13,098 nucleotides of DNA, taken from NCBI GenBank assembly GCA_019057975.1, contig JAHLWJ010000116.1:1-13098 (forward strand), written 5' to 3'. Position numbers and translations under genes: made by a program. The notes under the pieces are model-generated. The model saw only the letters and a program-made list of their open reading frames with translations, did not search any database and had not been told where the DNA came from. Below are positions 5,241 through 13,098 of the stretch, in pieces. Each line of letters opens with the position of its first letter. Position 1 is the first letter of the stretch. The DNA comes from Promethearchaeota archaeon. Its GTDB lineage: Archaea > Asgardarchaeota > Lokiarchaeia > Sigynarchaeales > SOKP01.

Positions 5241-6065
5241 TTATAATATACCTAAGATTTTTCGTGCTTCATTTGGAGATGCAATATCTCTTCCGAATTC
5301 ATTTGCAATTCTAACCACTTTTTCTACTAACTCTCCATTTGATTTTGCTAATACACCTTTAGAAAGATATACATTATCTTCAAAACCCACTCTTGCATGA
5401 CCTCCTTTTTCAATAGATAATGTTACCATTGGAAATTCATGCTTTCCGATCGCACATACTGTATATGCGGAATCTTTTGGTATACTCCCCACAAGAAAGG
5501 TTAAATCACGAGGTGAAGCACTAATACCTCCAATCACCCCAAGCACAAAGTTAAAATGCATTGGTTTTTTGATATACCCTTTTTTTTGTAATCGTAATGC
5601 CATATCAATCATCCCTTTATCAAAACATTCTAATTCATACCTAATGCCCCTTTTATTCATTTCTTCAGCGAAAAATATGATAGTATTTTCTGTATTGATA
5701 AATATTTCATCTCCACCAAAATTCATTGTTCCACAATCCAAAGTTGCCATTTCAGGTGGAGGTTCTAAATATATTGGTTGCAATCTTTCTTCATTGCTCA
5801 TACCAACCGCACCTCCTGTAGATGGTTGAATAATGACATCTGGGCATCTTTTTTTTATTTCTTCAATACATACTCGAAATCTTTCTTTGTTTTGAGTAGG
5901 TTTTCCATCGTCTTCTCTCACATGTAAATGAATTATGCTAGCTCCTGCTTTATAGGCTAATTCTGCTTCTTTTCCTATCTCTTTAACTGTATAAGGGATT
6001 TTTGGATTATGATCCTTAGTTACTTCAGCTCCACATATAGCTGCCGTTATTATTAATTTTTCCAT
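5241..6065 (-). CDS. kce: 3-keto-5-aminohexanoate cleavage enzyme (Kce, BKACE family)
   Basis: Zn-dependent TIM-barrel enzyme that reacts 3-keto-5-aminohexanoate with acetyl-CoA to give acetoacetate and 3-aminobutyryl-CoA. The 274-residue length matches the family. The metal ligands are IHLHVR (His46, His48) and ARVGFED (Glu229). Arg225 and Asp230 next to the ligand glutamate, Ser82 in QPSTGG and an acidic pair Glu14 (CGAE) and Glu144 (YELE) correspond to active-site residues described for the Cloacimonas enzyme. Retention of the acidic pair supports an amino-keto acid substrate rather than another beta-keto acid of this broad family. It is followed by the methyltransferase after 21 bp. Upstream lies a gap with TATA-like elements and a divergent zinc-ribbon gene, so it probably has its own promoter. 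Confidence 0.94.
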   Translation of the reverse strand: MEKLIITAAICGAEVTKDHNPKIPYTVKEIGKEAELAYKAGASIIHLHVREDDGKPTQNKERFRVCIEEIKKRCPDVIIQPSTGGAVGMSNEERLQPIYLEPPPEMATLDCGTMNFGGDEIFINTENTIIFFAEEMNKRGIRYELECFDKGMIDMALRLQKKGYIKKPMHFNFVLGVIGGISASPRDLTFLVGSIPKDSAYTVCAIGKHEFPMVTLSIEKGGHARVGFEDNVYLSKGVLAKSNGELVEKVVRIANEFGRDIASPNEARKILGIL

Positions 6066-9272: not shown

Positions 9273-9294
9273 TTTTAAAAAATAATATTTTTTT
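9273..9294. terminator. AT-rich convergent terminator region
   Basis: Between the convergent Cys-rich and coiled-coil genes a run of seven T (9288-9294) serves the plus strand. Runs of A at 9277-9282 and nearby read as T-runs on the minus strand. Archaeal termination commonly uses such T-tracts without a strong hairpin. The T-run reaches 2 bp into the stop codon region of the coiled-coil gene. Confidence 0.35.
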
Positions 9295-10873
9295 ACCAAA
9301 TTAAGTTTGCAATTACATCTTTAGCTGTTTCAGCTTGTCTCTTGTTTAGGATTTTTCGAATTCTTAGATCATTAATTGAATCTTCTAATCGAGTATCTAA
9401 GTTCTTCATCTCCATTAAATTATTTTTATCACCTTGAGTTTCCACTAAATCTATCATTGCGTTATCTTTATTCATTAAATCCCTTAGTTTTTTCCGAAAG
9501 CTTGCTTTAACTTTTGTCTTCACAGGTTTTCCTTTATCTATCAATATTGGTAATATCGGCGCTCTTTCAGTAGTTCTATTTGTATTAGGATCAAGGAAGT
9601 AAAAGATGTATATTGGTATTCCAACTATAACATTTTGTGTTTTTAGCTCTAGAGTATAGTTATTAAAAAAGTTTTGAACATTTGTCATTTCTTTATCCTT
9701 GACACTTTCGATATTATTTAAAGAAGATTGCTTTTCCGTTGCAATTTGGGCAACCACTCCTTCAGCAGAACTTAAATCTTTACTTAATCCAGAGTGTTTT
9801 GCCTCAATTTGCTTCTCAACTTCTGTTTTTTTGCGTTCTAGTTCTTTTAACTTTTGTTGTTTTGTTTTCTCAAGATCAGATATTTCACGTTGCACATTTT
9901 TCCTTAATTGAGCAATTTCATTTTTATAACGTGTAATTGAATTTCCTAAATCTCGATATTTTAAATCAATATCTTTTAAAGCCTCTTCTGTTAAAAAAAG
10001 ATCTCTTTGATTTAATGCATTCCTCATACTATCAACACTGCCTTTAAGAGTGCTGATACTATTATTTAATTCACCAGTTTTGTCATTGATTTTATATTTA
10101 CCACTTTTTACCAATTCTTCTGGAGATTTTTCAATTTCTCGTTCTTTTTCTGCTTGCAATTCTTTATTAAGTATAGCTAATTGTTTTTCTTCTTCACCTG
10201 TGTCAACTTTAGTATCTCTGATTTTATCAGCATCTTTGCCTCCTTTTTCAATCCATCTTTCACATAGTTTTGTAATAGCATCTCCAAAAGTATCAAGAAG
10301 ATGAACATCCTTTTGAGTTACATATTCAGGAATGTCGTTTACAATTTTAGTTTGATTTACACTTTTTGAAATCGAACCCCCTTCGAGTAGAAAATACGGA
10401 GAAGGGTGGGCGCTTAAATTGTATTGATTAAGGAAGAAGTTCTGAAAATAGCCAATTTCATTGGTATTAAAGAGAGCCTCTTGGATGACTAAACCTCTTT
10501 TGAAGTTTTTAGATCTTTTAAGGTAAGTATTATTAAATTGCCGTAAAGAATTAAGAAAACTCACCGGATCTGCTCCTTTAATAACCGCTTCTGGTCTTGG
10601 GGGCATTTTAGCAAATTTCCCTATATTCAACTTCTCTTGTTTATTATAAAGATAACTCATTACACACGCTCTAGTATCAGATAAAGGGATTAATCGAACT
10701 GGCCAAAAAGCAGTTGAGATTTTTGATAATCTTCCCAATTTTTTAAGATTTTTACTATAAATTCCTATACATTCAATTAAAGCCATTGCCAATTCATTTA
10801 ATACTGCAGCTTGACTCCGTGCGGGAGTGACCTCACCCACATTAATTAAATAAGGTACTACTTTATCAACCAT
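9293..10873 (-). CDS. coiled-coil protein of unknown function
   Basis: A 526-residue protein I do not recognise. Residues 1-210 look globular, with a hydrophobic helical start (LNELAMALIECIGIYSKNLK) and a conserved-looking stretch around FWPVRLIPLSD (57-67). Residues ~225-255 are highly charged. Residues ~290-400 form a long coiled coil rich in Lys, Glu and Gln, for example EISDLEKTKQQKLKELERKK. A C-terminal domain follows, beginning with a strand-rich segment VIVGIPIYIFYFLDPN (415-430) that may be buried beta rather than a membrane helix, and ending with a charged helix and IANLIW. There is no signal peptide. The layout suggests a scaffold or structural protein with globular ends. It is monocistronic and divergent from the SDR operon. 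The ATG is preceded by a weak GTGA element 9 nt upstream. Confidence 0.8.
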   Translation of the reverse strand: MVDKVVPYLINVGEVTPARSQAAVLNELAMALIECIGIYSKNLKKLGRLSKISTAFWPVRLIPLSDTRACVMSYLYNKQEKLNIGKFAKMPPRPEAVIKGADPVSFLNSLRQFNNTYLKRSKNFKRGLVIQEALFNTNEIGYFQNFFLNQYNLSAHPSPYFLLEGGSISKSVNQTKIVNDIPEYVTQKDVHLLDTFGDAITKLCERWIEKGGKDADKIRDTKVDTGEEEKQLAILNKELQAEKEREIEKSPEELVKSGKYKINDKTGELNNSISTLKGSVDSMRNALNQRDLFLTEEALKDIDLKYRDLGNSITRYKNEIAQLRKNVQREISDLEKTKQQKLKELERKKTEVEKQIEAKHSGLSKDLSSAEGVVAQIATEKQSSLNNIESVKDKEMTNVQNFFNNYTLELKTQNVIVGIPIYIFYFLDPNTNRTTERAPILPILIDKGKPVKTKVKASFRKKLRDLMNKDNAMIDLVETQGDKNNLMEMKNLDTRLEDSINDLRIRKILNKRQAETAKDVIANLIW

Positions 10874-11041: not shown

Positions 11042-11854
11042 GTGACGGAAAAATTTCTAGAAGGGAAAGGGTGCCTCATTACTGGAGGCGCATCTGGATT
11101 TGGTAGGGGTGTAGCCTATGCCTTTGCCGAAAGAGGGGCGGACTTAGTTTTAGTTGATATAAATGAAGAACTCCTTAATGAAACAAGTAAGAATGTCGAG
11201 AAAGAAACAAAACAAAAAGTAATCCCCATATTATGCGATGTATCAGAGGCTAAGCAAGTTAAAAAAATGACTGAACAAGCTTTTTCAGAACTAGATAATA
11301 TATATGTTTTATTTAATAACGCAGGTACCGAAGCAGCTTATGGTGTAGATGTTTTAAAAGTAGGTGAAAAAGCATGGGATTTGACTATGAATGTTAATCT
11401 TAAAGGTCAATGGTTAACAGATAAATTTGTGTCCCGTAAAATGAATCGACAAAAATCTGAGCCTTTAAGAGGGAAGATTATTCATACTTCATCAATTGCA
11501 GGGACAGTTGTTGATCCCTTAATCCCAGTTTATAGTATAAGTAAAATTGGGATAATAGCTTTAACACAGCTAGTAGCTAAAAGTCTTGCTCCTTATATTA
11601 CCTCAAACGCGATAGCACCGGGATTTCATGTCACAGGTGTTTATGGAAATAGAAAAGATATTATGATTCAGACCATGAAAGATGGAAATGTAAAAACACC
11701 ATTAAATAGAATAGGGACTATTGAAGATGTTGTTGATTTAATGGTTTTTTTAGCCTCACCAAGAAGTAATTTTATAACCGGTCATACATTTCCTATAGAT
11801 GGAGGTATCGCTGAAGTAGGTGTCGCTCCAAATACATTAAAGTCTGATATTTAA
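11042..11854 (+). CDS. classical short-chain dehydrogenase/reductase (SDR), NAD-type
   Basis: A 270-residue Rossmann-fold oxidoreductase. The cofactor motif is TGGASGFG (14-21), and Asp39 at the end of the second strand (LVLVDIN) favours NAD(H) over NADP(H). NNAG (92-95), Asn118, Ser151, Tyr164 and Lys168 complete the catalytic tetrad with the usual spacing (Ser 13 before Tyr, YxxxK). The C-terminal ITGHTFPIDGG is typical. The substrate is unknown; family members oxidise secondary alcohols such as 3-hydroxyacyl-CoA or polyols. It heads a plus-strand operon with a membrane protein (47 bp later) and a second SDR. The 168-bp gap upstream (10874-11041) is AT-rich with possible TATA elements and no coding frame. 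Confidence 0.92.
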   Translation: MTEKFLEGKGCLITGGASGFGRGVAYAFAERGADLVLVDINEELLNETSKNVEKETKQKVIPILCDVSEAKQVKKMTEQAFSELDNIYVLFNNAGTEAAYGVDVLKVGEKAWDLTMNVNLKGQWLTDKFVSRKMNRQKSEPLRGKIIHTSSIAGTVVDPLIPVYSISKIGIIALTQLVAKSLAPYITSNAIAPGFHVTGVYGNRKDIMIQTMKDGNVKTPLNRIGTIEDVVDLMVFLASPRSNFITGHTFPIDGGIAEVGVAPNTLKSDI

Positions 11855-12350: not shown

Positions 12351-13098
12351 ATGAAAAAAGAGAAATTAGTTAGACAGCAACCATTTAAAGACAAAATTGC
12401 TATTATCACTGGTGGATCTCAGGGATTAGGAAAAGCATCAGCAAAATATTTTGTAGAATTAGGGGGAAGCGTATGTATTATTGCAAGGAGGACAGAAATT
12501 TTAAAAGAAGCTGCTAATGAGATTAATGAATTAAAACTTGGTGATTCCCAATTTATAGAGATCATTGCATGTGATACCACAATTATGGATAAATTAAAAC
12601 CACTTTTAACTGAATTTATAGAGAAATATGGAATTCCTGATTATTTATTAAACTGTGTTGGGTATGCGTATGCCAATTATATTGAAAAATGTTCTCTCGG
12701 TGATTTTAAAAAGAACATGGAAGTGAATTATTATGGGCAGTTAGTTCCAATTCTAATTCTATTACCCTACTTTATGAAGGAAAAAAAGGGACACATTGTA
12801 AATGTTTCTTCCATATTAGGGTATATGGGCTTAATGGGCTTTACAACTTATGTTCCATCTAAATACGCAGTAGTAGGTTTATCGGAAACGCTTCGAAATG
12901 AGTTAAAACCTTACAAAATTAATGTATCAATTCTTTATCCTCCTTCTATGGATACTCCTGGATTTGAAATAGAAAACAAGATAAAACCTGAAGAATGTCG
13001 AATAATGGAAGCAAGAGGAGGACTTGAAACACCTGAAAATGTTGCTGAAGTCTTTATACATGGTATTTTAAAAAATAAGTTTAACATTTTACCTGGTG
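12351..13098 (+). CDS. 3-ketodihydrosphingosine reductase-like SDR, 3' end cut by window edge
   Basis: 249 complete codons of an SDR. TGGSQGLG (20-27) binds the cofactor, and CIIARR at the end of the second strand has the Arg typical of NADPH users. Catalytic residues are Ser154, Tyr167 and Lys171. The C-terminal substrate region SILYPPSMDTPGFEIENKIK (193-212) with PEE following closely matches the eukaryotic 3-ketodihydrosphingosine reductase (KDSR/Tsc10) motif YPPDTDTPGF...EN.TKP. Those enzymes reduce 3-ketodihydrosphingosine, the second step of sphingolipid synthesis. Unlike the human enzyme there is no N-terminal membrane helix here. GTGAGA lies just upstream of the ATG. Similar sequences could act on other long-chain 3-keto substrates, so the specific reaction is not assured. 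It is the third gene of the operon. Confidence 0.85.
   Translation, partial: MKKEKLVRQQPFKDKIAIITGGSQGLGKASAKYFVELGGSVCIIARRTEILKEAANEINELKLGDSQFIEIIACDTTIMDKLKPLLTEFIEKYGIPDYLLNCVGYAYANYIEKCSLGDFKKNMEVNYYGQLVPILILLPYFMKEKKGHIVNVSSILGYMGLMGFTTYVPSKYAVVGLSETLRNELKPYKINVSILYPPSMDTPGFEIENKIKPEECRIMEARGGLETPENVAEVFIHGILKNKFNILPG

Follow-up and report, generated by a model that had tools for sequence, protein, structure and literature searches.

The window analysed here, a 13,098-nucleotide stretch of DNA (contig JAHLWJ010000116.1), ends within a gene whose product resembles eukaryotic 3-ketodihydrosphingosine reductase (KDSR), and the locus raises the question of what such an enzyme reduces in an archaeon. 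Archaea are not known to make sphingolipids. An earlier note, made from the sequence alone, had called the host a probable archaeon and weighed the case of an Asgard, and this is borne out: the gene is 99% identical to a copy on contig JAUVXW010000014.1 (L001) of a Candidatus Lokiarchaeota MAG, which identifies the host as a Lokiarchaeon. The copy in L001 is complete and encodes 283 residues. The closest genome to the window, G001, is 94% complete and has 42% of the window's sampled 31-mers in common with it. The KDSR-like reductase family is called C0 below, the four-helix protein encoded upstream of it C1, and the more distant SDR of the locus SDR1 (C2). The relevant features are as follows.

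11042..11854, + strand: SDR1 (C2), an SDR resembling FabG and glucose dehydrogenase, upstream of C1 and C0 and apparently in one operon with them, 47-nt gap to C1
11902..12297, + strand: C1, 131 residues with four predicted transmembrane helices, not assigned to any accepted Pfam family; immediately upstream of C0 across a gap of 53 nt
12351..13097, + strand: C0, KDSR-like classical SDR by ORF, Pfam, PDB and trees; codons 1-249 of 283, the remainder lying beyond the window end
12408..12431, + strand: TGGSQGLG, the TGxxxGxG nucleotide-binding motif (C0 residues 20-27; G21, G25 and G27 invariant in 35 aligned rows)
12486..12491, + strand: Arg-Arg after the second beta strand (C0 residues 46-47; R46 invariant in the 35-row alignment)
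12810..12812, + strand: catalytic Ser154 of C0, invariant in the 35-row alignment
12849..12863, + strand: catalytic Tyr167-x-x-x-Lys171 of C0, invariant in the 35-row alignment
12936..12995, + strand: KDSR signature YPPSMDTPGFEIENKIKPEE (C0 residues 196-215)

The reading frame and the C-terminal segment from which the earlier note started are both present, residues 196-215 reading YPPSMDTPGFEIENKIKPEE. Pfam assigns C0 to the classical SDRs, and the protein has the TGxxxGxG motif together with the catalytic Ser and Tyr-x-x-x-Lys of the SDR fold; Gly21, Gly25, Gly27, Arg46, Ser154, Tyr167 and Lys171 are among the positions invariant in the 35-row alignment. The Arg46-Arg47 pair suggests a preference for NADP(H), and an Asp after the second strand of SDR1 suggests NAD(H) for that protein. 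Among PDB sequences, the top single-stretch, near whole-length match to C0 is Cryptococcus Tsc10 (8jat, 90 bits over residues 15-246); 2et6 ranks above it with 125 bits, which is the sum of two repeated domains (59 + 64 bits). The structure model of C0 is a single SDR domain with C-terminal helices, and the fold search gave general SDRs among the matches listed, with Tsc10 not among them. The partial protein falls below every NCBIfam cut-off, which counts against the explanation we prefer. Several C0 homologues are named '3-dehydrosphinganine reductase' by JGI, and thus an automatic KDSR label is already in public annotation.

C0 and the eukaryotic enzymes (KDSR/FVT1, Tsc10, TSC10A) share the classical SDR core and the catalytic Ser-Tyr-Lys, fall in one supported clade and are 30-35% identical over ~230 residues. 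They also share the signature P-P-D-T-D-T-P-G-F..E-N..K-P, with S-M in place of D-T in C0. When the pattern PP..DTPG..EN..KP was scanned in a strict and a looser version over several row sets, the strict form was found in 15/15 Asgard rows, in 8/8 bacterial rows from loci with FAAL and SPT-type genes (FAAL, fatty acyl-AMP ligase; SPT, serine palmitoyltransferase), in 13 of the 20 bacteria in the first tree (L005 being counted in this set as well as in the preceding one) and in 7/9 rows of a second bacterial set. Only 2/6 eukaryotic KDSRs have it (3/6 with the looser pattern), and it is absent from all 17 other SDRs and from the 566 other ORFs of the loci, one of which matches the looser pattern. 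On these counts of sequence matches the signature is far above chance and is a mark of the KDSR-like subfamily; since it is common in the bacterial members too, it is not a eukaryotic mark. The earlier note had taken it to match eukaryotic KDSRs rather than generic SDRs, of which the second half holds and the first is too narrow. As proof of eukaryotic kinship the signature was rejected, since the Asgard and bacterial rows have it more often than the six eukaryotic rows.

Trees built with eukaryotic, bacterial and archaeal homologues, as the earlier note had proposed, place C0 with eukaryotic KDSR/Tsc10 and apart from unrelated SDRs. The Asgard, bacterial and eukaryotic KDSR-like proteins form one clade in all three, with support of 96/98, 100/100 and 99/96, separate from the lokiarchaeal paralogues used, SDR1 and FabG. 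The first tree, which included 15 of the 29 distinct Asgard C0 genes, leaves all 14 other SDRs outside the clade. For the second, three long-branch lokiarchaeal SDRs were dropped and three others added; the third kept 11/20 bacterial and 4/14 outside rows of the first and added 16 bacterial and two outside rows. In the second and third trees the other SDRs again lie outside, except a Sinorhizobium SDR (L162), which in the third joins human and plant KDSR. By sequence, the window gene is a true member of the KDSR subfamily, and the three trees make a generic SDR without special kinship unlikely.

The trees do not carry the further claim that the gene bears on the origin of eukaryotic sphingoid-base synthesis. 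Fungal Tsc10 joins the Asgard group (83/90 in the first tree, 96/91 in the third) on long branches, with the human and plant rows elsewhere. AU tests reject neither a single eukaryotic clade (p 0.387 with the second tree, 0.209 in a later test) nor a placement of eukaryotes and Asgards with the SPT-linked bacteria (p 0.196 and 0.262), so that the eukaryotic rows are unsettled and descent from an Asgard gene is unsupported. An Asgard-only clade is rejected (AU p 0.016), and eight bacterial reductases linked to FAAL and SPT-type genes are nested within the Asgard clade (100/98, third tree). The rejection makes gene transfer with bacteria likely, and the sequences are compatible with movement in either direction.

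These eight bacterial genes (L005, L224-L230) are 52-57% identical to C0. The phylum of L005 is that of the Spirochaetes bacterium RBG_16_49_21 MAG, and a C0-like gene was found at 1e-45 in 43/247 of its genomes; larger stretches were taken for L005 and for 14 of the other 42. FAAL adjoins the reductase in all eight closest loci and an SPT-type synthase in six; the stretch of L229 stops at a contig edge on the relevant side, and L225 shows no synthase. In L224 a small gene lying between those for the synthase and FAAL encodes a carrier protein (PF00550). The synthases of L224, L228 and L230 score best to SPT, though by only 11-26 bits (375 vs 350, 371 vs 360 and 384 vs 368). In these respects the loci differ from the window, and C1 is found in the stretch of none of the eight, which separates the SPT context from the C1 context. 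The best argument for a sphingoid role is this FAAL/SPT neighbourhood in bacteria. In six further bacterial loci (L231-L236) an extended SDR adjoins the C0 gene, and the one in L231 is similar to OleD and to enzymes of the 3beta-HSD type.

The earlier note had also stated that characterised bacterial routes to sphingolipids rely on another reductase, which is true in part. Caulobacter CerR is described, in the part of the source available, as an NDUFA9-homologous, periplasmic ceramide reductase that acts after N-acylation (PMC11087976). Its reaction resembles the one proposed for C0, a keto group on a long-chain base being reduced as bacterial sphingolipids are made (PMC11087976, in the same part), and the enzyme probably lies outside C0's subfamily. 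Against the statement stand the nearest bacterial relatives beside FAAL and SPT-type genes and BT_0972 of Bacteroides thetaiotaomicron, according to the available part of its paper an SDR with shown 3-KDS (3-ketosphinganine) reductase activity (PMC9278070); by that paper's description, its catalytic and NADPH motifs are of the same kind as those of C0.

A home-made sphingoid base would call for an SPT-type alpha-oxoamine synthase, and the search for one that the earlier note had advised gave a divided answer. The genome closest to the window, G001, does encode an alpha-oxoamine synthase, in two contig-edge pieces 94% and 93% identical to that of G017, and the latter is Kbl-type, with 479 bits to TIGR01825 vs 353 to SPT. 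The synthases of G003, G004, G015 and G017 form a single clade on the Kbl side of a quick tree. Of the 19 genomes of the window's genus (g1), three, which are 58-81% complete, have no synthase at 1e-20; in the other 16 the score of the synthase to the SPT model does not exceed 354 bits. Thus no SPT-type synthase that could work ahead of C0 was found in G001 or the 18 other genomes of the genus, and the lineage, as judged from incomplete genomes, seems to be without the first committed enzyme. A search of the 58 relatives of G001 for the L005-type FAAL found none at 1e-60, in a run that had no positive control.

Other Asgard families do have SPT-type synthases. At a limit of at least 400 bits they occur in 30/227 Asgard genomes, in families f2, f15, f17 and f20 and in G032, which belongs to the window's own family and has C0 as well. 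In f2, a family of the same order as the window, 7/8 sampled genomes have the synthase, all seven with C0; the eighth, G049, has neither. The f2 and G032 synthases score 411-513 bits to the SPT model, below its cut-off of 640, and SPT is the best model for the eight that were typed. The f2 and G032 synthases form a clade (SH-aLRT 95) adjoining bacterial SPT-like genes in the quick tree, where bacterial SPT is represented by the ten top-scoring rows of the bacterial search, all under the model cut-off; most members of the clade share an NP..PAV-like loop. In f2 the synthase genes are distant from C0 and lie beside genes for MFS transporters, MutS, topoisomerase and others.

The occurrence of the two genes together was considered as functional proof and set aside. 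C0 is present in 27/58 relatives of G001, and all eight of these relatives with an SPT-type synthase have C0 (p 0.001), yet seven of the eight belong to one family. The link fails in wider samples. At 1e-40, C0 is present in 48/227 Asgard genomes, and 22/30 SPT-bearing Asgards lack it; both genes occur in 8/227 against ~6.3 expected (p 0.28). Of 17 C0-bearing genomes among 198 of the bacterial phylum of L007, three have SPT (p 0.56) and 14 have no SPT-type synthase. With overlaps of 8/30 and 3/17, SPT does not track C0. Synthases of the L005 type (371-385 bits) would fall short of the 400-bit line, and at a limit of 1e-110 the overlap is unchanged, at 8 of 51 Asgard genomes, a set that includes Kbl-type synthases such as that of G056, and 3 of 49 bacterial genomes.

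What accompanies the reductase in the window is a membrane protein. SDR1, C1 and C0 follow one another on the + strand in an operon-like arrangement with gaps of 47 and 53 nt. The human, Arabidopsis and yeast KDSR sequences used here have one or two hydrophobic segments each, whereas C0 has none (no 19-residue segment with hydropathy >1.6 in a hydropathy scan, the highest being 1.12), and by this measure lacks the transmembrane anchor of the eukaryotic enzymes, with a separate C1 gene instead. In the 198 genomes of the phylum of L007, C1 is found in 12/17 C0-bearing genomes vs 1/181 others; among the 58 Asgard relatives C1 occurs without C0 in nine genomes and C0 without C1 in seven, which counts against the reading we favour. 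The C1 family, which is tied to KDSR-like SDRs, has members in Asgards and, among the bacterial genomes sampled, in two phyla, so that this unnamed membrane protein tends to go with the reductase. A Foldseek search with C1 gave no match reaching 0.001, and a resemblance to EXPERA (EBP / sigma-2 receptor) is a lead only.

Other genes lie about the locus. In three genomes of genus g15 (L092-L094) a gene directly upstream of C1-C0 has a second copy nearby, and the L093 copy is ESCRT-III-like (Snf7, PF03357). The window encodes at 9293-10873 (- strand) a 526-residue protein without an accepted Pfam family, whose cluster C4 relatives are found near the C0 locus in 11 distinct stretches. Lysine-fermentation genes above NCBIfam cut-offs lie at 2-2182 and 5241-6065 (lysine 2,3-aminomutase, 3,5-diaminohexanoate dehydrogenase and 3-keto-5-aminohexanoate cleavage enzyme), with a CoA-transferase and an aminotransferase near them.

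The explanation that we prefer, though it could as readily fail as hold, is that C0 depends on NADPH, reduces a long-chain 3-keto lipid and is aided at the membrane by C1. Going by its sequence, C0 would turn a 3-keto group into an alcohol at the Ser154/Tyr167/Lys171 site, with NADPH as cofactor. The substrate would be a membrane-borne lipid with a long chain, perhaps a 3-keto amine or a similar beta-keto compound, and C1 would hold C0 or this substrate at the membrane. C1 is proposed for this part because C0 is without the hydrophobic segment seen in the eukaryotic rows and C1 is encoded just upstream. The substrate in the host is probably not home-made 3-ketodihydrosphingosine, as the genomes of the genus yielded no synthase of the SPT type. 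That C0 is the second enzyme of such a pathway, in which SPT makes 3-ketodihydrosphingosine and C0 reduces it, would agree with the three trees, the FAAL/SPT context of the nearest bacterial relatives and the joint presence of both genes in f2 and G032, but with 0/19 genomes of the genus having the synthase, those typed being of the Kbl type, and with the L005-type FAAL missing from the 58 relatives in the search described, we regard it as very unlikely. Sphinganine synthesis is plausible in some Asgards and is not supported in the window's host. It is quite unlikely, too, that C0 is a generic or detoxifying SDR on whose substrate the KDSR-like motif is uninformative: the strong subfamily clade and the C1 partner speak against this, even though SDR substrate ranges shift easily and 14/17 C0-like genomes of the phylum of L007 lack an SPT-type synthase.

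A different chemistry is suggested by genomes of the genus that have C1 and no C0. In four of five genomes of g1 with C1 and no C0 (G005, G006, G007 and G018, the last with a 125-residue piece) a TPP enzyme directly follows C1, where C0 stands in other genomes, and in G031, of another genus and likewise without C0, one lies near C1. These enzymes (L182-L185 and L189, L185 being the 125-residue piece) are 2-hydroxyacyl-CoA-lyase-like; the nearest PDB entries to that of G005 are the 8vz- series, oxalyl-CoA decarboxylase or 2-hydroxyacyl-CoA lyase/synthase, at 237-246 bits. C0 is thus optional in the g1 locus and may act on keto products of another pathway. In the window's genus it might reduce the hydroxy-keto product of such TPP-enzyme chemistry, the SDR1-C1-C0-NAD-kinase-like locus then being a carbonyl-metabolism unit rather than a sphingoid one. 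G017 (L087), in which the TPP gene comes directly after C0, fits this, but it is the only such case among the C1-C0 loci compared, and the fifth genome, G019 (L186), has C1 and neither C0 nor a TPP enzyme in its stretch. A common position in the locus does not amount to a common pathway, the more so as the locus borders lysine-fermentation genes too, and the KDSR signature and the FAAL/SPT-linked relatives favour a long-chain substrate; we consider the TPP-linked role unlikely. A broader scenario, doubtful but conceivable, is that some Asgards, f2 first, make sphingoid-type bases with an SPT-type synthase and KDSR, that the gene was exchanged with FAAL/SPT bacteria, and that the enzyme of the window's lineage, tied to C1, works on another long-chain keto lipid.

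Among the literature matches listed, no title or abstract deals with an Asgard SPT or KDSR gene, and none joins dehydrosphinganine reductase with Asgard. For the sphingolipid metabolism of eukaryotes, a 2026 Nature study reports, in the part available, a global association with Asgards (PMC12872458). A Black Sea survey found an Spt-like protein in none of its archaeal MAGs (PMC11334938), and the available portions of PMC12619533 and PMC12993136 contain nothing on an Asgard SPT or KDSR gene. For the source of eukaryotic sphingolipids, concrete candidate genes can now be named, with KDSR-type genes in 48/227, SPT-type genes in 30/227 and both in 8/227 Asgards, and the question therefore becomes testable by enzyme assay and lipidomics. 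The pairing of C1 with C0 provides a handle on an unnamed family of membrane proteins.
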